A stretch of DNA of 64,000 nt from Microbacterium endophyticum (lineage in GTDB: Bacteria > Actinomycetota > Actinomycetes > Actinomycetales > Microbacteriaceae): assembly GCF_011047135.1 (NCBI RefSeq), contig NZ_CP049255.1:2294001-2358000 (forward strand). The letters are read 5' to 3'. A program made the translations under genes and the position numbers. Each line of letters begins with the position of its first letter. Positions within the stretch are counted from its first letter, which is position 1. Shown here piece by piece: positions 10,481 through 32,631 of the stretch. Under the pieces are notes generated by a model that saw only the letters and a list, made by a program, of their open reading frames with translations, did no database searches and was not told the origin of the DNA.

Positions 10481-11260
10481 TTATCCGAAGCGGCCCGAGA
10501 CGTAGTCTTCGGTGGCCTGCACAGCGGGAGTCGTGAAGATCGCCGACGTGTCGTTGTATTCGATGAGCTTTCCGGGCTTGCCGGTGCCCGCGATATTGAA
10601 GAAAGCGGTCTTCTCGCTGACGCGTGATGCCTGCTGCATGTTGTGCGTGACGATGACGATCGTGTAGTCGTTCTTCAGCTCGCCGATCAGCTCTTCGATC
10701 GCGTACGTCGAGATGGGGTCAAGGGCCGAGCAAGGCTCGTCCATCAGCAGCACGTCGGGGGAGACGGCAATCGCACGCGCGATGCACAGGCGCTGCTGCT
10801 GACCGCCCGAGAGTCCTGATCCCGGACGGTCGAGACGATCCTTCACTTCGTTCCAGAGGTTTGCGCCCTTGAGCGAGTTCTCTACGAGGTCGTCAGCGTC
10901 TGACTTCGAGATGCGCTTGTTGTTGAGCTTCACACCGGCGAGCACGTTGTCGCGGATCGACATCGTGGGGAAGGGGTTCGGCCGCTGGAAGACCATACCC
11001 ACGTCGCGGCGCACCGCCACCGGGTCGACGCCTGGACCGTAGAGGTCGTCACCGTCGAGCAGCACTTCGCCCTCGACGTAGGCGCCGGGAATCACTTCAT
11101 GCATGCGGTTGAGCGTGCGGAGGAATGTCGACTTGCCACAGCCGGAAGGGCCGATGAACGCTGTGACGGATCGGGGTTCAATCATCAGCGACACGTCTTC
11201 TACCGCGAGGAAATCGCCGTAGTACACGTTGAGGTCGTTGACTTCGATGCTCTTAGACAC
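10481..11260 (-). CDS. pstB: Phosphate ABC transporter ATP-binding protein PstB
   Basis: 259 aa ABC ATPase. Walker A is GPSGCGKST, the signature is [14 protein letters not shown], Walker B is [13 protein letters not shown] and the switch region is IVTHNMQQA. The segments [10 protein letters not shown] and [11 protein letters not shown] are hallmarks of PstB. It powers high-affinity phosphate import through PstA and PstC. It is the last gene of the pstSCAB operon on this strand, 19 bp after pstA. Confidence 0.97.
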
Positions 11261-11279
11261 GGGGGCTCTTTCTTTCGGT

Positions 11280-12377
11280 TCAGCGACGGCCGGTCTTGGG
11301 GGAGAACAGCTTCGCGATCATTCGCGCAGCCAGGTTCAACACCATGACGATGAGAATAAGGGTGAGAGCGCCGGCCCATGCGCGGGCGACGGAATCGTCC
11401 GGGGTCGTGCCCTGGTTCGCGTACTGGTTGTACACGTACACCGGCAGGGTCATCATGTTGCCATCGAAAAGGTTGAGGTTGAGGCTCTGCGTGTAGCCCG
11501 CTGTAAGAAGCAGGGGAGCAGTCTCACCGATGACACGCGCGATGGCAAGCATGATACCCGTGGTGATTCCGGCGATCGATGTCGGGATCACCACCTTGAG
11601 GATCGTGAGCCACTTCGGCACGCCTAGCGCGTAGGCGGCTTCACGGAGTTCGTTGGGCACGAGACGCAGCATCTCTTCAGATGACCGAACGACAACGGGA
11701 ATCATGAGCACGCTCAAGGCGATGGCGCCGATGATGCCCATTGAGATACCCGGACCGAAGAACAGCGCGAAGACTGCATAGGCGAACAGACCCGCAACGA
11801 TCGAGGGGATGCCGGTCATCACATCGACGAAGAAGGTGATGGCCCGCGAGAGCCGGCTGCCGGTGGAGTACTCGACGAGATAGATCGACGTCATGAGCCC
11901 GATCGGTACCGAGATCACAGTTGTTGCGGCCGTGATGAGCAGCGTGCCGTAGATGGCGTGGATCGCGCCGCCGCCGGCGCCCACGACGTTCCGCATGCTG
12001 GAGCTGAAGAACTCGATATCAAAGCGCTGCACGCCTTCGACCACGACGGTGTAGAGCAGCGAGATGAGCGGCAGCAGAGCGACGATGAACGCTGCCGAGA
12101 CGACTGCTGTGATGACCCGGTCTGCCGCTTTGCGACGGCCTTCGACGATGCTCGAGAGTACGCCGATGGCGATGACGAACAGCAGGGTGCCGAGGAACAC
12201 CGCGGCCGCGATATTGAAGTTCTTGATCGGCTGACCGGCGTTCAAGATCGCGAAGACTGCGAACATGATGAGCCACGATGCGCCGAGCACCGTCCACGGC
12301 ACAGATCGCGGCAGCTTGCCGCTTGTGAGGGAGTTCACCGACTTCACGGGAGAAGCGGTGGCTGTAACAGTCGACAT
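11280..12377 (-). CDS. pstA: Phosphate ABC transporter permease PstA
   Basis: 365 aa with about six or more membrane segments and the permease coupling loop ([20 protein letters not shown]). The start ATG at 12377 shares one base with the pstC stop (TGATG), so the two are coupled; an upstream in-frame extension to 12419 was rejected for that reason. The N-terminus is longer than in Escherichia coli and carries two extra hydrophobic stretches, common in actinobacteria. It forms the channel with PstC. Confidence 0.95.
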
Positions 12378-13339
12378 CAGTTTGCTCCCGAGAATTCGGA
12401 ACGGCGGTTGACAATCCAACGGGCAAGCGCGTTGACCGCGAACGTGAGCACGAAGAGCACAAGGCCGGTCGCGATCAACACGCTCACGCCATCGCCGTAC
12501 GCCTCAGGGAAGGAGAGCGCGATATTTGCGGGGATCGTGGTCGGGTTCGTAGCCGTAATGAGCTCGAATGTCACAGCACCGGACACCGAGAGCACCATCG
12601 TGACGGCCATCGTCTCTCCGAGGGCGCGTCCGAGGGCGAGCATCGCGGCCGAGACCATACCGCCGCGGGCGAAGGGGAGCACGGCCATGCGGATCATCTC
12701 CCAGCGGGTGGCTCCCAGCGCTAGTGCTGCCTCTTCGTGAAGCTTCGGGGTTTGCAGGAAGACCTCACGGCAGATGGCCGTCATGATCGGCAAGACCATG
12801 ATCGCGAGCACGAGGGCGGCGGTGAGGATGGTGCGACCCGTTGCGGATACTTGGCCGCCGAAGAGCGGAATCCAGCCGAGATATTCGTTCAGCCATGCGT
12901 AGAAGGGCTGAATGAGTCCAGCGAAGGTAACGCCGCCCCAGAGGCCGAAGACCACAGACGGCACAGCAGCGAGCAGGTCGATGATGTAGCCGAGGAACGA
13001 CGCGATACGGCGCGGCGCGTAGTGCGAGATGAAGAGTGCGATGCCGATAGCGAGCGGAGCGGCGATGATGAGCGCGAGGATCGACGCCCAGATGGTGCCG
13101 AAGACGAACGGGCCAACATAGGCCCAGAACGATTCGCCCTTAAGGATCGGGTTTGCCTCGGGGTCACCCGTGAACGCCGGAATGCTCTCGGCTACGAGAA
13201 AGACGGTTACGGCCGCGAGTACGACGAGGATCGTGATTCCGGCGGCGACAGCGGTGCCGGAAAAGACGAGATCGCCAGGCCGCCGGGGTGCCTTCGGTTT
13301 ACTGCGCGGCTTGGTGTCCTTCGCCGTAGTCATCGCCAT
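12377..13339 (-). CDS. pstC: Phosphate ABC transporter permease PstC
   Basis: 320 aa. A basic N-terminus (KPRSKPKAPRRPGD) precedes six membrane segments. The permease loop is EEAALALGATRWEMIRMAVLP, and the GRALGETMAVTMV stretch is typical of PstC. It is separated from pstS by 136 bp that contain a hairpin, and overlaps pstA by one base. Confidence 0.95.
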   Translation of the reverse strand: MAMTTAKDTKPRSKPKAPRRPGDLVFSGTAVAAGITILVVLAAVTVFLVAESIPAFTGDPEANPILKGESFWAYVGPFVFGTIWASILALIIAAPLAIGIALFISHYAPRRIASFLGYIIDLLAAVPSVVFGLWGGVTFAGLIQPFYAWLNEYLGWIPLFGGQVSATGRTILTAALVLAIMVLPIMTAICREVFLQTPKLHEEAALALGATRWEMIRMAVLPFARGGMVSAAMLALGRALGETMAVTMVLSVSGAVTFELITATNPTTIPANIALSFPEAYGDGVSVLIATGLVLFVLTFAVNALARWIVNRRSEFSGAN

Positions 13340-13475: not shown

Positions 13476-14576
13476 TTACTTGATCAGCGCGATCGCGGAC
13501 TCAACCTGGGTACGCAGGCTGTCGGAGATCGGAGCCGAACCAGCGTTCGACGCTGCGGCATCCTGACCCTCGGGGCTTGCGATGTAGGAGAAGTACTGCG
13601 ACACGAGGTCAGCGACGTTGGAGTCTTCGTACTCGACGCAACCGATGAGGTAGCTCACGAGAGCGATCGGGTAAACGCCAGCCTCGTCGGTGGTGCGGTC
13701 GAGCTCGATGGCGATGTCGCCGTCGGTGCGACCCTCAACCTCGGGAGAAGCGTCAACGAGCGCCGCAGCAGCTTCGGGCGAGTAAGAGACGAACTCTCCA
13801 CCGACCTCGATAGCAACGGTGCCGAGGTCGCCGGCCTGCGAAGCGTCGGCGTAACCAATGGTGCCCTGACCGCCGGTCACAGCAGCAACGACACCGGAGG
13901 TGCCCTGTGCGGCTTCACCGGAATCGAGCGGCCATTCGCCGTCAGCCTCGTAGCTCCACACGTCGGGTGCGACAACGTTGAGGTAGTCGGTGAAGTTCTC
14001 GGTGGTACCCGAGTCGTCCGAGCGGTGCACGGGCGAGATCGCGAGGTCGGGAAGGTCAACACCCGGGTTGAGGTCGGCGATAGCCGCGTCATTCCAGTTG
14101 GTGATCGTTCCGGCGAAGATGCCAGCGACCGTCTTGGCGTCGAGGTCGAGCGAGTCGATGCCGTCGAGGTTGAAGATGATCGCGATCGGCGAGATGTAGA
14201 GCGGCAGCTCGACGATTCCAGCGGCGCCGTCATCTGCGCACGAGGCGAAGCCGCCAGCGGCGATCTCCTCGTCGTTGAACGCACGGTCAGAACCGATGAA
14301 GTTGCTGGCGCCGGCGATGAAGTTCTCGCGGCCTGTTCCCGAACCGGTGGGCTCGTAGTTGATCGTGACGTCGGGGTTTGCCGTCTGGAATGCGGCGACC
14401 CATGCTTCCTGGGCTGCCGTCTGTGACGAGGCTCCCGTTGCGGAAAGGGTGCCCGAGAGCGTCGATGCGCTTTCGGTGTCAGTGGCGGTGCCACCTTCGT
14501 TTGCGGCGCAGCCGGCGAGAGCGAGAGCCGCGACAGCGGCGAGGGCGCCCACCTGGGCGATGCGGTTGATCTTCAC
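13476..14576 (-). CDS. pstS: Phosphate-binding lipoprotein PstS
   Basis: 366 aa from GTG 14576, chosen for the GAAGGA ribosome binding site just upstream and because it places a lipoprotein signal at the N-terminus (lipobox LAGC). Phosphate-binding motifs are present: TGASSQTAAQEAWVAAF, GSGTGRENF, SPVHRSDDSGTTENF and SGVVAAVTGGQGTIGYA. It captures phosphate outside the cell for PstCAB. A PHO box lies about 90 bp upstream, so induction at low phosphate is expected. Confidence 0.96.
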   Translation of the reverse strand: MKINRIAQVGALAAVAALALAGCAANEGGTATDTESASTLSGTLSATGASSQTAAQEAWVAAFQTANPDVTINYEPTGSGTGRENFIAGASNFIGSDRAFNDEEIAAGGFASCADDGAAGIVELPLYISPIAIIFNLDGIDSLDLDAKTVAGIFAGTITNWNDAAIADLNPGVDLPDLAISPVHRSDDSGTTENFTDYLNVVAPDVWSYEADGEWPLDSGEAAQGTSGVVAAVTGGQGTIGYADASQAGDLGTVAIEVGGEFVSYSPEAAAALVDASPEVEGRTDGDIAIELDRTTDEAGVYPIALVSYLIGCVEYEDSNVADLVSQYFSYIASPEGQDAAASNAGSAPISDSLRTQVESAIALIK

Positions 14577-14665
14577 TGTGAATCCTTCACAAATCAGGGT
14601 GGTGTGACCCGGTGCAGGGCACGCCCCGACGGTAGACACGAACTCTTAAGAGAGTGCGCTGCAGG

Positions 14666-14687
14666 GGTGAACGGGAGGTGAACGGCT
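14666..14687 (-). promoter_or_regulatory. PHO box (direct repeats) between pstS and the NRPS gene
   Basis: On the complement, GTTCACC occurs twice exactly 11 bp apart (plus-strand GGTGAAC at 14666-14672 and 14677-14683). This matches the 11-nt direct repeat units bound by PhoP in Streptomyces. It lies 90 bp upstream of pstS and 51 bp upstream of the NRPS start at 14735, so it could affect both. RegX3 or a PhoP homologue is the likely ligand. Confidence 0.75.
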
Positions 14688-14734
14688 CCTGTGTGTGCCA
14701 AATTGGGGCTCATGCGGAAAATAGTCTGATCGTC

Positions 14735-17700
14735 ATGCCCCACCTTCCCGACGTGGCGCAGCCTCTTTTGGATGCTGCTTCCCTCGCGCCCAGGTCCCGT
14801 ACTCTCATCGACGTTCTCCGTGCCACTGCGGCCCAGTTTCCCGAGGCATCCGCTCTCGACGACGGGTCTGGCGCGCTGAGTTACCGCGAGCTGCTGGCGC
14901 ACGTCAACCGGACAGCTGCACGCCTGCACGAGGCAGGCGTCCGGCGCGGCGACCGCGTGGGAGTGCGGGTGGCATCGGGTTCGAAGGAGCTCTACATCTC
15001 GATTCTCGGCGTTCTCGCCGCGGGCGCCGCATACGTTCCCGTCGATGCTGATGATCCCGACGAACGTGCACGACTTGTCTTCGGTGAGGCCGCCGTAACG
15101 GGCATCATCGTCGGTTCGGGGGAGTACGTCTCCTCTGACCACGAGACTGACTCTGCAGCAGAACCTCTCTTTTCCGGAGATGCGCCACACCCCGCAACGA
15201 CGTCCACTGCGACGGTCCCCTCACCGGAGCCGAGCGACGACGCGTGGATCATCTTCACCTCCGGTTCAACGGGTGTACCCAAAGGTGTCGCTGTGACCCA
15301 CCGCTCAGCGGCGGCATTCGTCGATGCCGAGGCCGGGCTCTTCTTACGCGATGCACCCCTTTGTGCTGGTGACCGAGTGTTGGCCGGACTCTCTGTCGCG
15401 TTCGATGCGTCGTGCGAAGAAATGTGGCTCGCGTGGCGAAATGGTGCGTGCCTGGTGCCCGCGCCGCGTGCACTCGTGCGCTCCGGTGAAGACCTCGCGC
15501 CATGGCTGCTGCGGCAGGGCATCACCGCGGTGTCCACAGTGCCGACGCTCGCGGCAATGTGGCCCTCGAGTGCGATCGAAAACGTGCGACTGCTTATTTT
15601 CGGCGGCGAGGCGTGCCCGCCGGAACTAGCGGCCCGACTCGTTGCGGACGGGCGTGAAGTGTGGAACACCTACGGTCCGACCGAAGCGACAGTCGTCGCA
15701 TGCGCGGCCCTCCTCGATGGCACAGTGCCGGTGCGCATCGGACTCCCGCTCGATGGCTGGAGTCTGGCAGTCGTGAACACCGCAGGCGAGCCAGTAGCCG
15801 AAGGTGAGACGGGCGAATTGATCATCGGTGGGGTGGGGCTTGCCCGCTACCTCGACCCCGCCAAAGACGCCGAGAAATACGCCCCGATGCCAACTCTCGG
15901 GTGGGACCGTGCCTACCGTTCCGGCGATCTCGTGCGCTACGACACCGAAGGCCTCGTCTTCCAGGGGCGTGCAGACGATCAGGTAAAGGTGGGCGGGCGG
16001 CGCATCGAACTCGGTGAAGTCGAGTCCGCGCTCCAAGACCTGCCTGGCGTTGCTGCCGCGACAGTAGCTGTGCGCACCACGGATGCCGGTGTCTCGGTGC
16101 TTGTCGGGTATCTCGTTGCCGACAACCCCGCTGCCGGATTCGACACCTCTTCCGCACGGATGACGCTGTCGGAGCGCCTTCCTGCGGCAATCGTGCCGCT
16201 GCTCGCCCTCGTCGAGGAGTTGCCGGTGCGGACGTCGGGAAAAGTGGATCGCGCAGCGCTCCCGTGGCCGCTTCCCGGCATCGATACTCCCGTCGCGGGC
16301 CTCACACCCGGCGAAGCATGGCTGGCTGAGCAGTGGCAGGCCGTCTTGGGTGTGCCCGTTCCGGGGCCGAAGGCCGACTTCTTCGATCTCGGCGGTGGGT
16401 CACTTGCTGCGGCGCAGCTCGTGTCGCGCATCCGTCAGCGCGTGCCGGAGTTCGCTGTCGCCGACATCTATGACGTACCCCGGCTGGGAGCGATGGCCAA
16501 AGCCCTCGGTCCACTCGTCTCCGACGATGACGTGCACTTTCACGAGCCGCTTCCGACTCCGCGGCGGATGCAGTGGCTCCAGACGCTCTTGGGAATTCCG
16601 TTGTTTGTGCTCACCGGCATCCGCTGGTTGTTGTACATCTTGACCGCGTCTGCGCTTCTCCAGCCTTTCGGCGGATTCGACGTGCTGCCTACCGTGCCGT
16701 GGCCGGCACTGGTCCTGGGGCTCCTCGTGTTCGCCACCCCCTTCGGCAAGATGGCGATCGCTGCCGGTGCCGCGCGCGTGCTGCTGCGCGGCGTGGCCCC
16801 CGGCGACTATCCGCGCGGCGGGGGAGTTCACCTGCGGCTCTGGCTCGCCGAGCAGTTAGCCGATCAGATTGATGCCGTCGGCCTTGCCGGCGCGCCGTGG
16901 ATCAGTTACTACGCTCGCGCATTGGGCGCCCGCATCGGTCGAAACGTCGATTTGCACACTCTGCCGCCCATTACGGGAATGCTCCGCATCGGTGATGGCG
17001 CCTCGATCGAGCCCGAGGTGGACCTGTCGGGGTACTGGATCGACGGTGACCTCGTGCGCATCGGCGAAGTGCGCATCGGAGCCGAGGCAACGGTGGGTGC
17101 ACGCAGCACTCTCGCCCCGGGCACCCGCATCGGGCAGCGCGCAGAAATAGCGCCAGGCTCCGCTGTTTTCGGTCGCGTTCGAGCTGACCAATCGTGGGCG
17201 GGATCCCCTGCCATCCGCGTAGGCGGCACCTCCCGCGGTTGGCCCGGCGAGCACGCACCTGCGACGCACCGCTGGCTGTGGGCATATGCCGCATCAGCCA
17301 TCGGCTTGGCGTTGCTGCCCGTCATCGCCTTCGCGTGCGGTGCGGCGGTGCTCGCACTCGGTATGCGCGGTGCAGATTCGCTTGCCGAGGCAGCGCTCGC
17401 CGCAGCGATCTGGCTCGTACCGGCAACGCTTCTTACGGGTCTCGTGTTTGCTGCTGTCGTGGTCCTTCTCGTGCGATTGCTCTCACTCGGTCTTCGCGAA
17501 GGTATTACGCCGGTGCGCAGCCGCATCGGGTGGCAAGCCTGGTCGATCGAGCGCTTGCTCGATGCATCACGCGTGCTCTTGTTTCCGCTTTACTCGAGCC
17601 TGTTCACGCCAGTGTGGCTCCGGATGCTGGGAGCATCTGTCGGTCGAGATGTCGAAGCATCCACGGTCTTGCTTCTGCCGTCGATGACGCGCATCGATGA

Positions 17701-18682
17701 CGGCGCGTTCCTCGCTGACGACACGATGGTCGCGACGTACGAAATGCGCGGGGGCTGGGTGCGCATCGGTCAGGTGCGCATCGGAAAACGCGCATTCCTG
17801 GGAAACTCGGGCATGGCTGCCCCCGGTCACCGGGTGCCAAAAGACGGGCTCGTCGCCGTGCTCTCTTCAGCGCCGTTCAAAGCGAAGGCCGGGTCGTCGT
17901 GGTTGGGTTCTCCCGCCGTGCGCCTGCGCCGTGTGTCTGCCACGGGCGACCAGACTCGTACCTATCAACCCACGGGCGCTCTGCGGGCTGCACGTACACT
18001 CTGGGAGCTATGCCGCATCGTGCCCGTCATCGTGACCTACGCGCTCGGGCTTGCGGTGCTCTTCACCTTCGCGGCGCTCGTCAGCGCCTGGGGGATCGGG
18101 TGGGCGATCGCGTTATCAGGAATTGTCATGCTGATCGCCGGAGCCGTCGCTGCCGCTATCTCAGCCGCGGCCAAGTGGGCGATCGTAGGTCCGATCCGGG
18201 CTGGCTCTCACCCGCTGTGGTCAAGCTTCGTCTGGCGCACCGAAGTCGCTGACACATTCACCGAGATGGTTGCGGCGCCGTGGTTTGCGCGCAGCGCTGC
18301 GGGAACCCCCGCGCTGGCCGTGTGGCTGCGCGCGCTCGGTGCGAATATCGGACGAGGAGTCTGGTGCGACAGCTACTGGTTACCGGAGCCCGATCTGGTC
18401 ACTTTGGGAGCTGGATCAACCGTCAATCGGGGCTGCGTTGTGCAGACGCACCTGTTCCATGATCGAATCATGAGCATGGACACCGTCGAACTCGCGCCGG
18501 GGGCAACCCTCGGGCCTCACAGCGTGATCCTTCCCGCTGCTGTCATCGGTGCTCATGCAACCGTGGGACCGGCCTCGCTCGTCATGCGAGGCGAGACTGT
18601 GCCTGTCGGCTCGCGGTGGAGCGGAAACCCGATCGGGCCGTGGCGTGCCGTCAAGGCGCGGGCATACCAATCCACCTCATGA
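14735..18682 (+). CDS. Pls/PosA-family single-module NRPS with membrane C-terminus (candidate poly-lysine-type synthetase)
   Basis: 1315 aa from ATG 14735; the frame is open further upstream. An adenylation domain spans about residues 20-505: A3 FTSGSTGVPKG (174-184), A5 YGPTEA, A7 YRSGDLV, A8 GRADDQVKVGGRRIELGEVE, A10 lysine K503. A carrier domain follows with DLGGGS (Ser556). No condensation or thioesterase domain is seen. The rest has six membrane segments and three hexapeptide-like, acyltransferase-like soluble parts (near 770-860, 985-1080 and 1230-1300), the plan of epsilon-poly-L-lysine synthetase Pls. Specificity residues read from alignment to GrsA are D224, A225, E228, S267, I288, G290, T312, V320, V321, K503, close to the lysine code DAESIGSVCK. 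The family call is firm; the lysine product is inferred. Confidence 0.85.
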   Translation: MPHLPDVAQPLLDAASLAPRSRTLIDVLRATAAQFPEASALDDGSGALSYRELLAHVNRTAARLHEAGVRRGDRVGVRVASGSKELYISILGVLAAGAAYVPVDADDPDERARLVFGEAAVTGIIVGSGEYVSSDHETDSAAEPLFSGDAPHPATTSTATVPSPEPSDDAWIIFTSGSTGVPKGVAVTHRSAAAFVDAEAGLFLRDAPLCAGDRVLAGLSVAFDASCEEMWLAWRNGACLVPAPRALVRSGEDLAPWLLRQGITAVSTVPTLAAMWPSSAIENVRLLIFGGEACPPELAARLVADGREVWNTYGPTEATVVACAALLDGTVPVRIGLPLDGWSLAVVNTAGEPVAEGETGELIIGGVGLARYLDPAKDAEKYAPMPTLGWDRAYRSGDLVRYDTEGLVFQGRADDQVKVGGRRIELGEVESALQDLPGVAAATVAVRTTDAGVSVLVGYLVADNPAAGFDTSSARMTLSERLPAAIVPLLALVEELPVRTSGKVDRAALPWPLPGIDTPVAGLTPGEAWLAEQWQAVLGVPVPGPKADFFDLGGGSLAAAQLVSRIRQRVPEFAVADIYDVPRLGAMAKALGPLVSDDDVHFHEPLPTPRRMQWLQTLLGIPLFVLTGIRWLLYILTASALLQPFGGFDVLPTVPWPALVLGLLVFATPFGKMAIAAGAARVLLRGVAPGDYPRGGGVHLRLWLAEQLADQIDAVGLAGAPWISYYARALGARIGRNVDLHTLPPITGMLRIGDGASIEPEVDLSGYWIDGDLVRIGEVRIGAEATVGARSTLAPGTRIGQRAEIAPGSAVFGRVRADQSWAGSPAIRVGGTSRGWPGEHAPATHRWLWAYAASAIGLALLPVIAFACGAAVLALGMRGADSLAEAALAAAIWLVPATLLTGLVFAAVVVLLVRLLSLGLREGITPVRSRIGWQAWSIERLLDASRVLLFPLYSSLFTPVWLRMLGASVGRDVEASTVLLLPSMTRIDDGAFLADDTMVATYEMRGGWVRIGQVRIGKRAFLGNSGMAAPGHRVPKDGLVAVLSSAPFKAKAGSSWLGSPAVRLRRVSATGDQTRTYQPTGALRAARTLWELCRIVPVIVTYALGLAVLFTFAALVSAWGIGWAIALSGIVMLIAGAVAAAISAAAKWAIVGPIRAGSHPLWSSFVWRTEVADTFTEMVAAPWFARSAAGTPALAVWLRALGANIGRGVWCDSYWLPEPDLVTLGAGSTVNRGCVVQTHLFHDRIMSMDTVELAPGATLGPHSVILPAAVIGAHATVGPASLVMRGETVPVGSRWSGNPIGPWRAVKARAYQSTS

Positions 18683-19980
18683 GCGAGGACCATGAAGGCT
18701 ACGCGCCGCAAAGCGGCGACCCTTCGTTCGACGTGGAGTCGTACGACCTCGACCTGACCTACCGGGTTCGCACGAATCGGTTGGAAGGTACCGCAATGCT
18801 CTCGGGGGTGGTGCGAGAGCAGACGCGCTCGCTTTCGATTGACCTCATCGGTCTTCGCGTATCGCGGGTGCGTCTCGATGGTGAAAAGCGTACGAAGTTC
18901 ACGCAGGGACCGCGAAAGCTTCAGGTCGGCGCGCCGCGCGAGTTGAGGCCTGGCGAGCGGTTCACCATCGCGATCGACTATGCCGGCGCTCCCGCCCCCC
19001 GACACTCGCGGTGGGGAACGATCGGCTGGGAAGAGCTCGACAACGGCGCTCTCGTGGCCAGCCAGCCGGTGGGTGCGCCCACCTGGTTTCCCTGCAACGA
19101 TCGTCCAGACGACCGCGCCACCTACTCGCTGAGCATCACTGTCGATGCCGAGTACGCTGTCGCGGCGACCGGCGTTCGCACCGACGTCACTCGCAAGGGT
19201 GGCATGGTGACATCCCGATTTCGGAGTGATGTTCCCACCGCGACGTACCTGCTCGCGTTGCAAATCGGCACATACACGCCCTCGCCGTTCGAGGTGCCGG
19301 GTGGAATCACTGGCGAGCTCCACACGGCTCCAACTCAGCGAGTCGCCGCTGCCCGTGCGTTTGCCGACGTACCGAAAATGCTCCGAGCCTTCACGGATGC
19401 CTTCGGCCCCTATCCGCAGCAGCACTGCACCCTCGTCGTCACCCCCGACGCGCTGGAGATACCGCTCGAGTCGCAGGGCATGGCCGTGTTCGGGTCAAAC
19501 CATTTGGCCCCCGACAGTGAGCGTCTCGTCGCGCACGAGCTTGCGCACCAGTGGTTCGGCAACAGTGTCGGCATCGGGCAGTGGAACGATATCTGGCTCA
19601 ACGAAGGATTCGCGTGCTACGCGGAATGGCTGTGGTTCGAGGCATCCGGTCGGCAAACCGCGGATGCGAGCGCGCGCGAGCACTACCGTCAGCTGCGCGG
19701 TGAACCGCAAGACCTCGTTATCGCTGAGCCCGGGCCCGATCTGATGTTCGACGACCGCCTCTACAAGCGTGGTGCGCTCGCTCTCCATGCTTTGCGCACG
19801 TTGCTGGGAGACACCGTATTCTTCGATCTGCTTCGCGAGTGGGCCGCCGACAACCGCCATGCGCTCGTCGATACCGAAGACTTTCGGATGCTCGTCGCTC
19901 GCTATTCACCGCGCCACGGCGGCGCGACCCTCAGCGCCTGGATTGACCAGCCCTCGCTGCCGAGCTTCCCGCGGCGGTAA
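18679..19980 (+). CDS. M1-family zinc metallopeptidase (aminopeptidase-like)
   Basis: 433 aa, starting at ATG 18679 within the stop of the NRPS gene (ATGA overlap). The zinc site is HELAH (286-290) with the third ligand Glu309 in WLNEGFACYAEW, and Tyr362 in DDRLYKRGAL fits the M1 catalytic tyrosine. The usual GxMEN motif is replaced by LESQGMAVFG. The protein lacks the C-terminal helical domain of long M1 enzymes and has no signal peptide. Coupling to a Pls-like NRPS recalls the epsilon-polylysine-degrading Pld aminopeptidases of Streptomyces; that role is an inference. Confidence 0.88.
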   Translation: MSEDHEGYAPQSGDPSFDVESYDLDLTYRVRTNRLEGTAMLSGVVREQTRSLSIDLIGLRVSRVRLDGEKRTKFTQGPRKLQVGAPRELRPGERFTIAIDYAGAPAPRHSRWGTIGWEELDNGALVASQPVGAPTWFPCNDRPDDRATYSLSITVDAEYAVAATGVRTDVTRKGGMVTSRFRSDVPTATYLLALQIGTYTPSPFEVPGGITGELHTAPTQRVAAARAFADVPKMLRAFTDAFGPYPQQHCTLVVTPDALEIPLESQGMAVFGSNHLAPDSERLVAHELAHQWFGNSVGIGQWNDIWLNEGFACYAEWLWFEASGRQTADASAREHYRQLRGEPQDLVIAEPGPDLMFDDRLYKRGALALHALRTLLGDTVFFDLLREWAADNRHALVDTEDFRMLVARYSPRHGGATLSAWIDQPSLPSFPRR

Positions 19981-20500
19981 CGAAGCGCGCTTGAACTGCA
20001 AGAGCGATTGCGACTCCCGATGGGCCCGAAAGATCCCAACCCCGAAATGCCGTGGATCCCGGGATAACCGCTGTCCACGCTTTTGTGTTTCCGGTGATCT
20101 CAACGCTGCGCGGATCAACGCGCAGCCCGCGACCGTCTGCTTTGAGAGCCGATTCGACGCGCACCCAATCAGTGACAGTCGCCGATGTGCGACCCAGCGC
20201 TCTCGCATACCCCTCGCGCGAGCGAACCGGGTCATCGGTAGCTTCCGCATCGATTCCGATAGCAGCTATTGAACGGCTGTCCGCTACTGCCACGAGGGCA
20301 AGCCCGCCAGCGTAAGAGACGCTCGCGCGCAGCGCGGCCCCCGAAATACGCACCGGACCATGATCGCCGCCACAGCGAGCGCATCCCGTCGAGATGTGAG
20401 CTGCGTCGCCGACGAGTCCCCGCAGCAGCGACCACGCGGCGTCCCGCCGACCAAGGCGATCGGGTGCCGGCCCCCATGCCACACGAACGTCAGGGCGCAC
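19931..20500 (-). CDS. 4'-phosphopantetheinyl transferase superfamily protein
   Basis: 189 aa from GTG 20500, which has GAAGGA at the right distance and follows the upstream stop by one base. The Sfp-type signature is present: SVSYAGGLALVAVA, IGIDAE and WVRVESALKADGRG. Such enzymes move the phosphopantetheine arm of CoA to the serine of carrier domains. A carrier domain (Ser556 of the NRPS) is encoded 2.3 kb away, so it is a likely substrate. The 3' end overlaps the convergent M1 peptidase gene by 50 bp. It is co-directional with the MutT-like gene and ppk1. Confidence 0.82.
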   Translation of the reverse strand: MRPDVRVAWGPAPDRLGRRDAAWSLLRGLVGDAAHISTGCARCGGDHGPVRISGAALRASVSYAGGLALVAVADSRSIAAIGIDAEATDDPVRSREGYARALGRTSATVTDWVRVESALKADGRGLRVDPRSVEITGNTKAWTAVIPGSTAFRGWDLSGPSGVAIALAVQARFVTAAGSSAARAGQSRR

Positions 20501-20501
20501 G

Positions 20502-21440
20502 TCAGTCCTTCGGAACGTGCGTCTCAATCGCGATAATTCCGGAACCTGGGTTCGTGGCCGAAATATGGGCCACAGAGAACCCGGCCAGGTCCAGTGCCGC
20601 GGCGGCCCCGATGTACGAGCCAGCGACAGTTCCAGTGGTCATCGCGATCTCGTTGAGAACATCGGGCATCACGGGTCGGTGGCTGCACAGCACAGCGGCT
20701 TTTCTCGACCGTACCCTCTTGCTGATGACGCTGCGTGGGTCTGCTGTGCCCGCTTCCCACGCGTCTTGGCTCAGCTCGGGCGTCGCTGTGACTTTGATTC
20801 CGAGCGTGGCCGCAAGCGGTGCGACAGTGTCAAGGCATCGGCGCGCGTCGCTCGAGACGATCCGACGAATGCCGAATGCTCGCAGCGCACCGACGATCGA
20901 CTCTGCCTGTCGTGTTCCCCGTGCGGTCAACGGGCGTGCACTGTCGATCGCGGCCCATGACTCGCGGGGGAGCGCCTTCGCATGTCGAAGCGCGATGATC
21001 GGGAACGTTTCGAGCACTCCGTCATCGACGAACTTGAGGAACGCCTCCAAAATCTCGACATCAGCGGGGTAGCTCACTTGAGCGAGTGCCTTCTTGGGAC
21101 TCAGCCACGTCAGCGCAGAAATTTCTTTATTCGGAACGAAGTCTGAGGCGCGGATCGCATCATCGGTCGCGTGTGCCGACCAGTAGTGCACGATCTTCTT
21201 GCGCCCGCTGGGCAGATGATAGGTCGACACGCCCACGGGAATTCCGAGCGATGTGCGGATGCCGGTTTCTTCGTGGATCTCACGGACCGCGGTCTCCGCG
21301 AGCATCTCGCCAGGGTCCACCTTGCCCTTGGGTAGCGAAAGATCGCGGTATTCCTCGCGACTGACGAGCAGCACCCTCAACTTGCCGTCGACGAGGCGCC
21401 AGACCACTCCGCCGGCCGCGTATACAGCTGTAGCCGTCAC
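20502..21440 (-). CDS. Nudix hydrolase-histidine phosphatase fusion (MutT1-like)
   Basis: 312 aa starting at GTG 21440 and overlapping the ppk1 stop (GTGA). The N-terminal half carries a full Nudix box ([20 protein letters not shown], then TGI; about residues 39-61). The C-terminal half looks like a phosphoglycerate-mutase-type phosphatase ([40 protein letters not shown]). This two-domain plan and the place next to ppk1 match MutT1 of Mycobacterium, which hydrolyses 8-oxo-GTP and diadenosine polyphosphates. Substrates here are not tested. Confidence 0.87.
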
Positions 21441-23608
21441 CGAATAGCCCGTGCCCGCGCGCGACGCTGACGTCGAATCGCGGCCATCGTCTTGTCTTGG
21501 AGATCCTCGAGCGGTTTGCCCTCGGCATCCGAATTATGACGCGTCCACTTGCCATCGGAACCCAGCCACCATGAGCTGGTTTCTGCGCTCAGCGCCTCGG
21601 TGAACAACGAGCCGAGGTGGGCGATTTGCGCCGGGTCGACGATACGAACAAGGGCTTCGACACGACGGTCGAGGTTTCGGTGCATCATGTCGGCGCTACC
21701 GATGTAAACCTGGGGGTCGCCATCATTTTCGAAACAGAAAAGGCGCGAGTGTTCGAGGTAGCGACCCAGGATGCTCCGCACCGTGATGTTTTCGCTCATC
21801 CCGGCGACACCGGGGCGCAGACTGCAGATGCCGCGCACCCACACGTCCACTGGTACGCCTGCTTGGCTGGCGCGATAGAGGGCGTCGATGATCTGCTCAT
21901 CAACCATCGAGTTGACTTTGATTCGGATGCCGGATGGGCGTCCTGCCAGCGCATTCGTGCGCTCCTTATCGATCAGTCGAACGAGACCTTTTCGCAAGTG
22001 CAGCGGCGCAACGAGCAGACGTTTGAACTTCTTCTCGATCGCATAGCCGCTGAGTTCGTTGAAGAGGCGGGTGAGATCGCGACCCACCTGGTTGTCCACA
22101 GTAAACAAGCCGAAGTCTTCATAAATACGGCTGGTCTTCGGGTTGTAGTTACCCGTTCCGACGTGACTGTAATGACGCAGCACGTTGTCTTCTTGTCGAA
22201 TGACAAGGGCAAGCTTGCAGTGAGTCTTCAAACCCACGAGACCGTAGACGACGTGCACGCCGGCCTTTTCGAGCTTGCGGGCCCACACGATGTTGTTCGC
22301 CTCATCGAAACGCGCCTTGACCTCGACGAGCGCGAGCACCTGCTTGCCGGCTTCGGCAGCGTCGATGAGTGCCTGCACGATGGGGCTGTCGCCAGACGTG
22401 CGGTACAGCGTCTGCTTGATGGCGAGAACGTAAGGGTCTTTCGCCGCCTGTTCGAGGAACGCCTGCACGCTCGTTGCGAATGACTCGTAAGGGTGGTGTA
22501 CGAGCACATCTGCTTTGCGGATAGCGGTGAAGAAGTCCACTCGCTCGTTGTTGTCGCCCGGCTGGAACGCTGCAGCTGTTGTAGGAACGTGGGGTGTGTA
22601 GTGCAGGTCGGGGCGTTCGATGCGTGCGAGGTCAAACAGACCGCGAAGATCGAGCGGCGCCGGAAGTCGATACACCTCCTGCGTCGTGATGCCGAGCTCA
22701 TCGACGAGCAGCTTCAACGTGAGTTCGTCCATGTCGTCGGCGATCTCAAGCCGAATCGGGGGCCCGAATCGGCGACGCATGAGCTCCGCTTCGAGGGCCT
22801 GGATCAGGTTCTCGGTCTCGTCTTCTTCGATCACCATGTCTTCATTGCGGGTGAGACGGAAGGCGTGATGATCGAGAATCTCCATCCCCGGGAAAAGATC
22901 CGCGAGATTGTTGGAGATCAGATCTTCGAGGGGGAGGTACCGCACGCGGTCGCCCTCGCGAAGCACCTCGACGAACCTCGGGAGCATCGGCGGCACTTTG
23001 AGGCGCGCGAACTCTTGGCGACCCGTCTTGGCATTGCGGATGCGGATCGCAAGGTTCAGGCTGAGGCCCGAAATATAGGGGAACGGGTGTGCCGGGTCGA
23101 CTGCCAGTGGCATCAGAACCGGAAAAACCTGCGTCTGAAAGTAGTCGTAGAGCCGCGCACGATCCGGGTCGGAAAGCTCGTCCCAACGCACGACGTCGAT
23201 GCCGGCATCAGCAAGTGCTGGGCGCACAAGGTTTCGCCATGCATCAGCGTGGCGCAGTTGCAGAGTGTGCGCTTCTTGAGAAATGTCGGCCAACACATCC
23301 TGCGGAGCGCGGCCAACGTTGGTGGGAACTGCAAGCCCGGTGATGATTCGACGCTTCAGTCCCGCAACACGCACCATGAAGAACTCATCGAGGTTGCTGC
23401 CGAAAATCGCGAGGAAGTTGGCGCGCTCCAGTGCCGGGAGGTGAGGATCCTCAGCGAGCTCGAGCACGCGCTGATTGAACGCGAGCCAGCTCAGCTCTCT
23501 GTCGAGATATCTGTTCTCTGGCAGTTCTGAGTCGCGCGATTCGTCGACTCCATCGAAGTCGTCGTCGTCTGCGTCACCAAGACCGGTGTCCAATGTCTCG
23601 TGGATCAT
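21437..23608 (-). CDS. ppk1: Polyphosphate kinase Ppk1
   Basis: 723 aa from ATG 23608; the frame also opens at ATG 23653 (738 aa). N-terminal [20 protein letters not shown] and [13 protein letters not shown] are typical. The phosphorylated histidine lies in [12 protein letters not shown], and the second conserved histidine 19 residues later in [11 protein letters not shown]. It builds polyphosphate from ATP reversibly. The upstream acidic tract ([18 protein letters not shown]) is poorly conserved. AAGGA directly abuts ATG 23608, an unusual spacing, so the start stays uncertain. A PHO-box-like repeat lies just upstream of 23608. Confidence 0.95.
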
Positions 23609-23630
23609 TCCTTCATCATGACATTCAGAA

Positions 23631-23652
23631 GTGACCGCCGTGTGAACTCTCA
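23631..23652 (-). promoter_or_regulatory. PHO-box-like direct repeat at ppk1
   Basis: On the complement, GTTCAC and GGTCAC lie 11 bp apart (plus-strand GTGAAC at 23642-23647 and GTGACC at 23631-23636), matching the period of PhoP repeat units with one imperfect unit. It lies 23 bp upstream of ATG 23608, or within the first codons if ppk1 starts at 23653. Confidence 0.4.
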
Positions 23653-23732
23653 TGCTGATAATGTCGCCTCAGATCGAATGAACGGGCCGAGGCGTGATCC
23701 GGGTGGGGGACACGCCAGAAGATAGGTCAGTC

Positions 23733-25008: not shown

Positions 25009-25707
25009 CTACGCGTCGGAGCGTTCCTTGCGCGGAGGCACCTGATCTTCTTCGTACACGTTGAAGCGGTAGCCGACGTTTCGAACTGTTCCGATGAGCT
25101 GCTCGAGGTCGCCGAGTTTTGCGCGCAAGCGCCTCACATGAACGTCGACAGTGCGAGTGCCGCCGAAGTAGTCGTATCCCCAGACTTCGCTCAGCAGCTG
25201 TTCGCGGGTGAAGACACGTGAGGGGTGCGTGGCGAAAAAGTGGAGAAGCTGGAACTCCTTGTATGTGAGGTCGAGCGGCTTCCCGTGCACCTTGGCCGAG
25301 TACGACGATTCATCGATCGTGATGCCCGACGTCTGGATCCGGCTCGAGACCTGTTCTTTTGTGACTCGTCCGATCGCGAGGCGGATACGCGCGTCCACTT
25401 CCGCGGGGCCAGCGGTGACGAGGATGACGTCGTCCACGCCCCAGTCCGTCGACACAGCGGTCAGGCCGCCTTCTGTGACAACCAGCAGGAGCGGCGCATC
25501 GAGACCTGTCGTGTTGAGGATTTTGCAGAGCGACTTCGCGCCGACGAGGTCAATACGCGCATCGATGAAGATCACATCCGCGCTCGGCGCATTGACCAAC
25601 TGTGCCGGTTCTGCCGGGATTTGTCGTACACGGTGGCTCAAGAGTTCGAGCGCGGGCAGGATCGGGCCGCCCCCGTGTGCGGAGCTGAGTACAAGAAGCT
25701 GTGCCAA
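25009..25707 (-). CDS. glnR: Orphan response regulator GlnR
   Basis: 232 aa, OmpR type. The receiver-like N-terminal part contains [32 protein letters not shown] and [19 protein letters not shown], features of actinobacterial GlnR. The winged helix ([20 protein letters not shown], then [14 protein letters not shown] and [11 protein letters not shown]) is complete. GlnR controls nitrogen assimilation and works without a partner kinase, and no kinase lies next to it here. The C-terminus is charged (PPRKERSDA). Confidence 0.88.
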
Positions 25708-29930: not shown

Positions 29931-30590
29931 TTACGCGTCGTCTGCTACCGGCACCCAGTCACCTGTGGCGAGGTAGACGATCTTCTTCGAAACTGACACC
30001 GCGTGGTCGCCGAAGCGCTCGAGGTAGCGGCTTGCAAGGGTTGCATCGACGGTGGCAGCAGCTTCGCCGCGCCATGAGTCGCTCAAGACCTTCTCGAAGA
30101 CGCTGACGTGCAGTTCGTCGAGTTTGTCGTCGGCGTTGCGAATCTCATCAGCAAGCGCGACATCACGCGTACGGAGCAACTCGGCGAGCTTGTTCGCGAG
30201 TTCAACATCAAGCTCACCCATTTTGGTGAAGGTGCCCTTGAGGCCCTTCGGGATGGCCCGATCGGGGAAACGCATACGCGTCAACTGCGCGATGTGCTCG
30301 GCGATGTCACCCATGCGCTCGAGCGATGCGCTGATGCGCAACGCCGAAACGACAACGCGAAGGTCGCTTGCCACGGGTTGTTGGCGAGCGAGAATATCGA
30401 TTGCGAGCTCATCGAGCGCAACCGTCTTCTCGTCAATAACAGGGTCGTTTTCAATGACTTCTTCGGCGAGCGCGACATCACTCGTTCCGAATGATTGGGT
30501 CGCTTTAGCCATGGCTTCTGCCACGAGCTCGGCGATCTCAATGAGTCGATCTTGCACATCTGCCAGCGATTGCTGAAAAACCTCGCGCAT
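29931..30590 (-). CDS. phoU: Phosphate signalling protein PhoU
   Basis: 219 aa from ATG 30590, preferred over ATG 30596 because AAGGA then lies 6 nt upstream. Helical throughout with two PhoU repeats: ENDPVIDEKTVALDELAIDI and EIRNADDKLDELHVSVFEKV. The SASLERMGDIAEHIAQ and SRYLERFGDHAVSVSKKI motifs are diagnostic. PhoU links Pst transporter state to the phosphate kinase-regulator pair; senX3-regX3 is divergent next to it. Confidence 0.95.
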   Translation of the reverse strand: MREVFQQSLADVQDRLIEIAELVAEAMAKATQSFGTSDVALAEEVIENDPVIDEKTVALDELAIDILARQQPVASDLRVVVSALRISASLERMGDIAEHIAQLTRMRFPDRAIPKGLKGTFTKMGELDVELANKLAELLRTRDVALADEIRNADDKLDELHVSVFEKVLSDSWRGEAAATVDATLASRYLERFGDHAVSVSKKIVYLATGDWVPVADDA

Positions 30591-30751
30591 CGACATTCCT
30601 TCCTGGCGGGGATAAGCGTTCGAACCGGCCTCCGCGATTCTCGCGAGCGAAGGTTAACGAACGGTGCCGCGAGAGTGAATAGTAGCTGGCCTGGGCGCAT
30701 CTGCCTCAATCCGGTTCCGAAGCGATGTGTAGCGCCGTCTAATCTGGAGAA

Positions 30752-31951
30752 ATGGAAACGACGCAGCTCGCGCTGCTCGCCCTGTTACTCGGGGTGATTA
30801 TTGGCGGGTCCGCCGCGCTCGTTGTCGTCGTCGCGCTTCGGGCGCGTGACCGACAGCTCGCCGAAGCATCCGTCGATGTACCCGACGGCGTGCGCGACGT
30901 CTTAGCGGGCATGGATGACGCGGCCATCGTGGTCGATGCATCCGGCACCGTCCGCGCGGCATCCGTCGCGGCTGGCGGGTTCGGCATGAATGTCGGCGAT
31001 GTGATCAGCGACGAGCAGCTGCGGACCCTCGCCCGCGCGGCGCGTGCGGTCGATGTGCCGGGTGCTGCCACGCTCACTCTGAAACGCGCACTCGCTCCCG
31101 CCGAACCGCGTCTCGTATCGGCACGCGCGAGCGCCATCTCCGGCCGACTTGTGCTCATCGTGGTGCGCGACATCACCGAGCGTGAACGTGTCGAACAGAT
31201 GCGCCGCGATTTCGTAGCGAATACAAGCCATGAACTCAAGACCCCCGTTGGTGCCGTGAGTTTGTTGTCGGAAGCAATCGAGTCGGCGGCTGACGACCCG
31301 GAACAGGTGCGGATATTCGCGCGACGCCTCAACGCTGAGGCTTCGCGACTGTCGTCGCTGACGTCGCGCATCATGAATCTTTCGCGACTTCAGGCGGCAG
31401 ATGAGTTGGCAAACGTGCGAGATGTTTCCGTCGATGAGATCGTGACTGGAGCGATCGACGCGCAAAGTCTGCAAGCAGATGTCGCGGGCGTCGAAGTTGC
31501 TCGTGGTGGCACGCGCGGATTGTATGTGCGCGGCGATGCGCAGATCTTGAGCGAAGCTCTAGGCAACCTCGTCGCGAATGCCATTGCGTACTCGCCGCGC
31601 TCCTCTCGAGTGGGCGTCGGTGTGAAGCTCGATGGCGAGGCAGTCGAGATCTCTGTCACAGACCGGGGTATCGGAATGACAGATGCCGAGCAGGAGCGGG
31701 TTTTCGAGCGGTTTTATCGCGCGGATCAAGCGCGTTCTCGGCGCACCGGCGGCACCGGACTCGGCCTGTCTATCGTGAAGCACGCGGTGCAGCGGCACGG
31801 GGGAGAGGTGCGCCTGTGGTCGAGGCAGGGCAAGGGCTCGACTTTCACAATCAGCCTCCCGCGCGCCAAAGCACCCGATGACATCCCGGAGCCGTCTAAG
31901 GCACGGAAGAAGAAGACTAAAGTTCAGTCCACGAATGGAGCTTCACTATGA
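30752..31951 (+). CDS. senX3: Sensor histidine kinase SenX3
   Basis: 399 aa. One N-terminal hydrophobic segment (about residues 5-28) is followed by a PAS-like part (50-145). The phospho-acceptor box is NTSHELKTPVGAVSLLSEAI (His near residue 156). N, G1 and G2 boxes are LGNLVANAIAYSP, DRGIGMTDAEQERVFERFYR and GGTGLGLSIVKHAVQRHGGE. Place and domains match SenX3, the kinase for RegX3 in phosphate limitation. It overlaps regX3 by 4 nt. The C-terminal tail is Lys-rich. Confidence 0.93.
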   Translation: METTQLALLALLLGVIIGGSAALVVVVALRARDRQLAEASVDVPDGVRDVLAGMDDAAIVVDASGTVRAASVAAGGFGMNVGDVISDEQLRTLARAARAVDVPGAATLTLKRALAPAEPRLVSARASAISGRLVLIVVRDITERERVEQMRRDFVANTSHELKTPVGAVSLLSEAIESAADDPEQVRIFARRLNAEASRLSSLTSRIMNLSRLQAADELANVRDVSVDEIVTGAIDAQSLQADVAGVEVARGGTRGLYVRGDAQILSEALGNLVANAIAYSPRSSRVGVGVKLDGEAVEISVTDRGIGMTDAEQERVFERFYRADQARSRRTGGTGLGLSIVKHAVQRHGGEVRLWSRQGKGSTFTISLPRAKAPDDIPEPSKARKKKTKVQSTNGASL

Positions 31952-32631
31952 CCCGCGTGCTCATTGTCGAGGACGAGCCGGATCTTGCAGATCCGCTCGC
32001 ATATTTGTTGCGTCGCGAGGGCTTCGAGACCGAGATCGCCGAAGACGGTGCCGCAGCGTTGACAGCGTTTCGGGAGCGCAGCGCCGATATCGTCCTGCTT
32101 GACCTGATGCTTCCCGGCATGCCGGGAACAGAGGTCTGTCGCCAGTTGCGCACCACATCGAGCGTCCCCGTGATCATGCTGACGGCGAAGGACTCCGAAG
32201 TCGACATCGTCGTGGGACTCGAGTTGGGTGCTGACGACTATGTCACAAAGCCCTACTCGGCCCGGGAGCTGCTTGCGCGCATGCGTGCAGTACTTCGTCG
32301 CTTCGAAAGCGCGGACGCTGATCTCGATGAACACGTCTTGAGTGGCGGACGCGTTTCGCTCGACATAGATCGGCATACGGTTTCCGTCGGCGGTGGCGAG
32401 ATCAGTATGCCGTTGAAAGAATTCGAGCTTCTCGAGGTTCTCATGCGCAATGCGGGGAGAGTCCTCACTCGGGGCCAGCTCATTGATCGTGTGTGGGGCA
32501 CCGACTACTTCGGAGACACGAAGACTCTCGATGTGCACATCAAACGGATTCGCTCTCGCATCGAAGAGCACCCGAGCCGTCCCAGCATGTTGGTCACAGT
32601 GCGAGGTCTGGGGTACCGCTTCGAGGCGTGA
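31948..32631 (+). CDS. regX3: Response regulator RegX3
   Basis: 227 aa OmpR-family regulator. The receiver has acidic VEDEPDLADPLAYLLRREGF, phosphorylated Asp in DIVLLDLMLPGMPG (about residue 52) and LTAKDSEVDIVVGLELGADD. The winged helix has GRVLTRGQLIDRVWGTDYFG and DVHIKRIRSRIEEHPSRPS. It controls phosphate-starvation genes; the PHO box at 14666 is a plausible target. Coupled to senX3 by an ATGA overlap. Confidence 0.94.
   Translation: MTRVLIVEDEPDLADPLAYLLRREGFETEIAEDGAAALTAFRERSADIVLLDLMLPGMPGTEVCRQLRTTSSVPVIMLTAKDSEVDIVVGLELGADDYVTKPYSARELLARMRAVLRRFESADADLDEHVLSGGRVSLDIDRHTVSVGGGEISMPLKEFELLEVLMRNAGRVLTRGQLIDRVWGTDYFGDTKTLDVHIKRIRSRIEEHPSRPSMLVTVRGLGYRFEA

Follow-up and report, generated by a model that had tools for sequence, protein, structure and literature searches.

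A gene at positions 14735 to 18682 (forward strand) of a 64,000-nucleotide stretch of the Microbacterium endophyticum chromosome (contig NZ_CP049255.1, positions 2,294,001 to 2,358,000; hereafter the window) very probably encodes Pls, a synthetase of the antimicrobial polymer epsilon-poly-L-lysine (epsilon-PL). This assignment draws on the substrate pocket, the clade, the domain plan, and a coupled M1 metallopeptidase gene. Together with that peptidase gene and a gene for a 4'-phosphopantetheinyl transferase (PPTase)-like protein, pls forms a cassette that sits between ppk-mutT1 and pstSCAB, with pls divergent from pstSCAB across a PHO box. In other genera, PHO-box promoters often stand directly at pls. 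We lean, if only slightly, toward a reading in which coryneform and Micrococcales-type actinobacteria make epsilon-PL in response to phosphate starvation, with pls as a Pho-regulon gene under a pstS-like promoter and the Microbacterium kit placed inside a pst/ppk island.

The presence of Pls is not the novelty, because Microbacteriaceae examples are already in print. Jiang et al. (2021) listed Pls in Corynebacterium, Brevibacterium, Arthrobacter, Microbacterium, and other genera, with identical or highly similar pockets and an operon with a peptidase (PMC8117764), and a 2025 paper predicted an epsilon-PL cluster in Agrococcus, Microbacterium, and Leifsonia (PMC12067966). By description, the predicted clusters of the latter (Agrococcus phoenicis, Microbacterium canaveralium, M. 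jepli, and Leifsonia virtsii) share the family and domain plan of the window protein; unlike the window, they come with no mention of a phosphate link in the portion of that paper available to us. An earlier note on this DNA had read the gene as a Pls-type synthetase of poly-lysine or a related polymer, and the pocket, tree, domains, and coupled M1 gene sustain a lysine-type homopolymer synthetase. Its view of poly-lysine production as a trait known mainly from Streptomyces and its relatives, so that a copy in Microbacteriaceae might make an undescribed polymer, is not supported by these publications or by our survey, in which 58 of 99 sampled Microbacterium genomes carry pls. That note left the neighborhood unmentioned; what looks new is the cassette with its PPTase-like gene at phosphate-uptake genes, along with the PHO-box promoters of pls. 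Across the order, 75 of 248 genomes gave a pls match, including two at 36% identity that are possibly not Pls proper. A scan of named genomes found at least 592 relatives among at least 594 matched stretches, of which 80 were retained as named loci.

Domain plan and substrate pocket of the synthetase

The reading frame runs from an ATG at 14735 to a stop codon at 18680-18682, as previously placed, and encodes 1315 amino acids. The protein matches TIGR02353 (Pls/PosA, NCBIfam) at 725.4 bits against a cut-off of 423.1, in the C-terminal region (residues 615-1300), and its parts follow the order A-T-(2TM-C)x3, where TM denotes a transmembrane helix. The A domain is placed at residues 49-444 by TIGR01733 and spans residues 16-515 (14780..16279, +) when aligned to 7wew, the structure of an epsilon-PL synthase A domain. 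A carrier (PCP) domain at residues 529-591 (16319..16507, +; PF00550, 44.4 bits) contains Ser556 in DLGGGSL. The C-terminal region, residues 596-1315 (16520..18679, +), comprises six TM helices and three acyltransferase-like parts. Hydropathy analysis gave ten partly overlapping stretches, compatible with six helices and clustered at residues 617-642, 648-678, 847-880, 882-925, and 1091-1152, with one weak stretch in the A domain (85-104). AlphaFold2 modeled residues 596-1315 at a mean predicted local distance difference test score (pLDDT) of 76, with parts below 50; the long helices of this model come in three pairs, and a strand-rich part follows each pair. At E <= 0.001 the model had six PDB fold matches, half of them galactoside O-acetyltransferases and half designed tetrahedron proteins, and many hexapeptide acyltransferases stood among the weaker matches. 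The Pfam scan of Pls returned AMP-binding, PP-binding, and Hexapep as the only families, with no condensation or thioesterase domain. The protein has the composition expected of Pls, namely A and T domains without condensation or thioesterase domains (Pfam/NCBIfam) and six TM helices set between three acetyltransferase-like domains (hydropathy, a moderate-confidence model, and fold matches), and the architecture proposed earlier is borne out in each of its parts. No second pls copy was found in the 2.92-Mb, one-contig genome, where the other five matches are A-domain parts at 30-31% identity.

The pocket residues (224, 225, 228, 267, 288, 290, 312, 320, 321, and 503) read DAESIGTVVK, the code that the earlier note had given. 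The top PDB sequence match of the window protein is 7wew (E 8.3e-186, 623 bits), and the alignment put the same ten residues, and no others, in both pockets. The former grading of the code as merely near-lysine was too weak and is rejected, the pocket being identical to that of Pls. Of 94 extracted rows, 90 have the same residues, among them one from Streptomyces whose record is annotated as epsilon-poly-L-lysine synthase; the four deviating rows are three reversed extractions (L087, L093, and L094) and the outgroup L106. That outgroup, marked by its dat and ask neighbors as a poly-diaminobutyrate (poly-Dab) locus, has the pocket DFECLSAVTK, which differs from Pls at 6 of 10 positions, and is 34.6% identical to the window protein. 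A Pls/PosA tree of the kind suggested in the earlier note (91 proteins, a quick method with no bootstrap, and L106 on a very long branch as the sole poly-Dab-type outgroup) places the window protein deep within the Pls side among Microbacterium, far from L106 and sister to L011 and L012 (SH-aLRT 96). Among same-genus genomes, Microbacterium Pls form two groups, at about 76-81% and 71-73% identity to the window protein.

That the gene encodes a Pls-fold synthetase of another basic homopolymer, such as poly-ornithine, or of a mixed short oligomer is quite improbable. The substrate is not fixed by a pocket code alone, such codes may be compatible with ornithine or another basic amino acid, which tells against lysine, and enzymes with the same overall plan produce poly-diaminobutyrate and poly-diaminopropionate (PMC8117764). 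However, the window protein shares all ten pocket residues with 7wew and the other Pls-clade rows, whereas the poly-Dab-type outgroup does not, and the window has a PldII-like peptidase gene instead of dat or ask neighbors. Among known systems, S. albulus Pls and PldII, like the window, show the A-T-6TM-3C plan, the pocket (7wew), and a coupled downstream peptidase (PMC9223678, PMC8117764). A Streptomyces locus annotated pls (L104), which serves as a stand-in for full-length S. albulus Pls, is 52.8% identical to the window protein over the alignment and likewise has an M1 gene neighbor, but no annotated PPTase.

By description, Corynebacterium variabile Pls resembles the window as a coryneform chromosomal pls with a peptidase, and the enzyme was validated in S. 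coelicolor (PMC8117764). What tells against the preferred reading is that C. variabile itself gave no detectable epsilon-PL, nor did its Pls on overexpression in C. glutamicum (PMC8117764). The words "phosphate" and "phosphopantetheinyl" are missing from the main text of that paper, and the trigger of coryneform pls genes is called unknown there. An inactive or relic pls, for which the silence of C. variabile Pls under the tested conditions could speak (PMC8117764), is extremely improbable in the window, where the frame is full length, the pocket and carrier residues are retained, the three-gene cassette is kept, and the C-domain columns are strongly conserved among relatives.

A three-gene cassette and its empty site

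The TGA stop codon of pls overlaps (ATGA) the ATG, at 18679, of an M1 metallopeptidase gene (18679..19980, +; PF01433/PF17900). Its PldII-like product carries HELAHQWFGN, with HELAH as the HExxH of an M1 peptidase. Translational coupling of pldII to pls has been reported in S. albulus (PMC9223678). An M1 match lies downstream of pls on the same strand in 80 of 80 named loci, mostly within about 170 bases; the distance is about 640-2,200 bases in L056, L057, L059, L069, and L071.

Convergent to the M1 gene is the third gene of a ppk-mutT1-ppt run on the minus strand (19931..20527, -), which overlaps mutT1 by 26 bases and encodes a 198-residue protein with an Sfp/PptT-type fold. Sfp-type enzymes are recognized by the motifs D-x-E and W-x-x-x-E-A-x-x-K, which residues D93, E95, W121, E125, and K129 fit. 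A fold search with the AlphaFold2 model (pLDDT 90.9) gave 34 PDB matches at E <= 0.001, comprising 31 named phosphopantetheinyl transferases and three entries named "Transferase." Two points argue against a PPTase: the fold matches are moderate (TM score 0.43-0.60), and the Pfam ACPS model scored 13.2 bits, under the database cut-off of 25, for which reason we call the protein PPTase-like. In the Pls literature consulted, to the extent that its text was available, we have not seen such a neighbor beside pls described. In a second PPTase-like frame elsewhere in this genome (L116:1403-2041 = G000:C1:1949602-1950240), the equivalents of Cys49, Cys52, Glu95, Glu125, and Lys129 are replaced. Without the conserved acidic and lysine residues, this second protein is probably inactive as a PPTase and therefore unlikely to be an alternative activator of Pls, a role that the AcpS of the same genome may fill.

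Across the 99 genus genomes, a close M1 homolog (E <= 1e-136) occurs in the same 58 as pls, and a PPTase-like match occurs in these 58 plus two genomes with weak matches (G037 and G082); the match in G058 is on a separate contig and is interrupted by in-frame stops. Twenty of the 41 pls-less genomes were examined, and in 19 of these ppk, mutT1, pstS, and pstC are consecutive, with no match to the cassette genes between mutT1 and pstS and alignments 85-547 bases apart. In the remaining one, L196, the examined stretch yielded no pstS. Because the pls-less genomes show this clean empty site, the pls, M1, and PPTase-like genes are a single cassette, acquired or lost as a whole. The GC content is 0.659 for pls, 0.656 for the cassette at 14735-20527, and 0.620 for the window, and no other 3948-base stretch of the window (1-kb steps) reaches the value of pls. 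Import, at which the high GC content could hint, was considered and weighed against the wide distribution in the genus and the tree position among Microbacterium.

PHO boxes at pls and in the phosphate island

Boxes were scored out of 14 against GKTCACC-N4-GKTCACC in the 200 bases upstream of pls and upstream of other genes of the same loci, the latter taken from a crude open-frame caller. In a first set, a score of at least 13 was found at 18 of 81 pls genes versus 1 of 193 other genes, and a score of at least 12 at 29 versus 3. In a second set, drawn from further genera within the order, the counts were 11 of 60 versus 1 of 55 at the higher threshold (p 0.0045) and 24 of 60 versus 3 of 55 at the lower (p 1.4e-5). 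This set comprises 60 of the 68 non-genus pls genomes, G108, G143, G160, G171, G184, G222, G320, and G332 being omitted as fragmentary, 5'-truncated, or distant; none has the first 200 bases of pls in common with the first set. Related rows are not independent of one another, and the box label changes 8 times on the tree versus 21.2 times when shuffled. Counting any PHO-like match against mononucleotide shuffles was too loose and was replaced by the upstream-region controls, the second set, and a composite of fixed spacing.

Among pls upstream regions with a box of at least 12, 38 of 53 have xAxxxT exactly 9 nt downstream. The composite of a box of at least 11, 9 nt, and xAxxxT is present in 54 of 141 pls upstream regions versus 3 of 230 controls (Fisher p 1e-22, a value that is partly post hoc because the spacing of 9 was taken from the hits of both sets jointly); at spacings of 7, 8, 10, and 11, the count is 2-4 of 141, near background. 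Genome-wide, the perfect composite is a single site in the window genome (G000, between pstS and pls), in G110, and in G275 (at pls in the latter two); G352 (Arthrobacter B1805) has two such sites, at pls and at a pstS, and no control match was seen in the four genomes; G110, G275, and G352 were picked for a perfect pls box, and these counts speak to the rarity of the motif, not to its frequency. At several Rhodococcus pls loci, a box scoring 12-13 of 14 precedes an element like GATAAC, which fails the strict -10 test. A scan allowing one mismatch matched 55 of 60 genomes at many sites and was not used as evidence; among the matches listed were pls sites in G275, G110, G156, and G169.

In 19 genomes chosen by their pls box, a comparison that checks the motif and not its frequency, the primary pstS has a box of at least 12 in 18 and a strict -10 in 11, and three second pstS copies have boxes of 10, 11, and 13 without a strict -10. 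The GTTCACC direct repeats of 11 nt that belong to the actinobacterial Pho regulon (PhoRP or SenX3-RegX3) are alike at pstS and pls. It is unlikely that the repeat at pls is read by another OmpR-family regulator, such as MtrA, which also has 11-bp repeats, instead of by the phosphate regulator. The 7-nt unit GTTCACC is the PHO-box core of S. coelicolor (PMC4415409) and the same box precedes pstS in the same genomes, even though M. tuberculosis PhoP, too, recognizes 7-bp direct repeats, spaced by 4 bp (PMC4832192), and some of the repeats read GGTAACC or GGACACC. Judging from these promoter sequences, phosphate control of pls is likely in the genera whose pls carries the box. Neither a PHO box at pls nor pls as a Pho member was reported in the literature searched, which includes the available text of PMC9195005, PMC10012588, PMC9205021, and PMC9617413 and leaves out most subscription journals. 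In a high-producing S. albulus strain, RegX3-SenX3 and alkaline phosphatase D were raised, which fits phosphate control and proves nothing (PMC10157215).

Pho genes lie near pls in several loci, with pst and ppk in L007-L016, pst in L085, and ppk in L054 and L061; phoU, a SenX3-type kinase, and CHAD are not general near pls among the 144 loci searched. Three genomes of a single genus have, upstream of pls, a DUF3349 gene and a gene for a phosphate transporter of the Pit family, with PF01384 matched in L142 (L142:825-2222, L149:643-2028, and L152:1566-2786), and a perfect GTTCACC direct repeat stands on the opposite strand at the transporter start in L142 and L149. The R. opacus plasmid pROB01 (418198-432028; L107) carries a pls with phoU, DUF3349, and CYTH/CHAD nearby and no annotated M1 gene in that stretch.

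In the window, the intergenic region common to pls and pstS holds the sole perfect GKTCACC-N4-GKTCACC of the genome (GTTCACC-tccc-GTTCACC; 14666..14683, -), and six other sites have one mismatch. The box is oriented to pstS and is followed after 9 nt by the -10-like CACTCT of the pstS promoter (14651..14656, -), as judged by sequence layout; a box with the 9-nt spacing precedes pstS in 27 of 30 Microbacterium loci, window included. On the pls side, a -10-like hexamer, TAGTCT, can be read 7 nt before the ATG (14722..14727, +). A palindrome, CTCTTAAGAG, at 14643-14652 at the pstS -10 is common to several Microbacterium relatives. The same pstS-pls arrangement, directly divergent, is seen in L008, L009, L011, and L012 and, by upstream sequence, in L087, L093, and L095. 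A second layout (L007, L010, and L013-L016) has a Lys/Ala-rich frame between pstS and pls that runs into pls (L007:5070-6014, L010:5337-6005, L013:5211-5978, L014:5331-6005, L015:5127-5978, and L016:5274-6014). By eye, its product is histone-H1-like; in L013 its C-terminus matches Rho_N weakly (23.5 bits, cut-off 24.9). We saw no such frame in the window; in this layout, a polycationic protein stands in one run with a polycation synthetase.

Phosphate control of the window pls, whose only link to phosphate is the intergenic region common with pstS, has about an even chance on the sequence. The competing view, that the box serves pstS alone and that pls is transcribed from TAGTCT, a promoter of its own, under different control, stands a little short of even. 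The box faces pstS, whose -10 follows at 9 nt, pls is preceded by no forward box, and the other Microbacterium layout also has the box at pstS; but in the nearest relatives, L011 and L012, which form the smallest supported set with the window in the tree, this intergenic region holds a further box that is oriented to pls (12 and 13 of 14), and pls boxes recur in many genera where the fetched flank shows no pst gene. Several further observations weigh against phosphate control of pls. The window pls has no forward PHO box of its own over the -35 (best 10 of 14, no composite) and is therefore not filed as a Pho-regulon member, only predicted to act like one. Of 141 pls upstream regions, 87 lack the composite; among these are the window, the majority of Microbacterium loci, and every Nocardia and mycobacterial locus of the set. 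Streptomyces L104, Kitasatospora L105, and R. opacus L107 likewise have no PHO box at pls.

The flanking genes complete the island. On one side, pstS (13476..14576, -; PF12849, 149 bits) likely starts at a GTG at 14576, chosen by inspection before a lipoprotein signal in a frame that is open to 14639; TIGR00975 scored 198.6 bits, slightly below its cut-off of 205. It is accompanied by pstC, pstA, and pstB (10481..13339, -; TIGR02138, TIGR00974, and TIGR00972). On the other side lie a gene for a NUDIX and histidine-phosphatase protein (20502..21440, -; PF00293 and PF00300), which we take to be MutT1-like, and ppk, for polyphosphate kinase 1 (21437..23653, -; NF003922, 1170 bits). Farther away, phoU (29931-30596, -), above its family cut-off, adjoins genes for a kinase (30752-31951, +) and a response regulator (31948-32631, +). 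These two have many family matches, the best below equivalog cut-offs, and from their position beside phoU are presumably of the SenX3/PhoR and RegX3/PhoB types. This pair, about 12 kb from pls, is a candidate reader of the PHO box. Another OmpR-family response regulator near ppk (25009-25707, -) is weakly PhoB-like and presumably GlnR-like.

Proposed pathway and its meaning

In the scheme that we propose, whose product, PPTase-Pls pairing, and phosphate control we infer from the sequence, the A domain would activate L-lysine with ATP to lysyl-AMP and load it onto the phosphopantetheine arm of Ser556. By analogy with Streptomyces Pls, from which both the joining chemistry and the export are inferred, the three membrane-anchored C domains would connect lysines by way of their epsilon-amino groups, with the chain exiting at the membrane. 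As has been suggested for PldII, the coupled M1 peptidase may protect the cell itself by trimming or destroying the polymer, and the Sfp-fold PPTase-like neighbor would be the dedicated activator of Pls. Phosphate starvation would most likely switch the cassette on by way of the SenX3-RegX3-type system about 12 kb away.

Coryneform pls genes are common, and the polymer went unseen in the one coryneform tested; a promoter layout like that of pstS suggests low phosphate as the inducing condition, making phosphate starvation a candidate trigger of silent pls genes. A dedicated PPTase might, speculatively, explain in part why expression failed in hosts unable to activate the carrier domain. If the proposal is true, the polycation would serve phosphate-starved cells, for example by killing neighbors for their phosphate or by binding polyanions, polyphosphate or teichoic acid among them. 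It would then point to new epsilon-PL producers and to a native role for the polymer, and it would link phosphate hunger to antimicrobial warfare.

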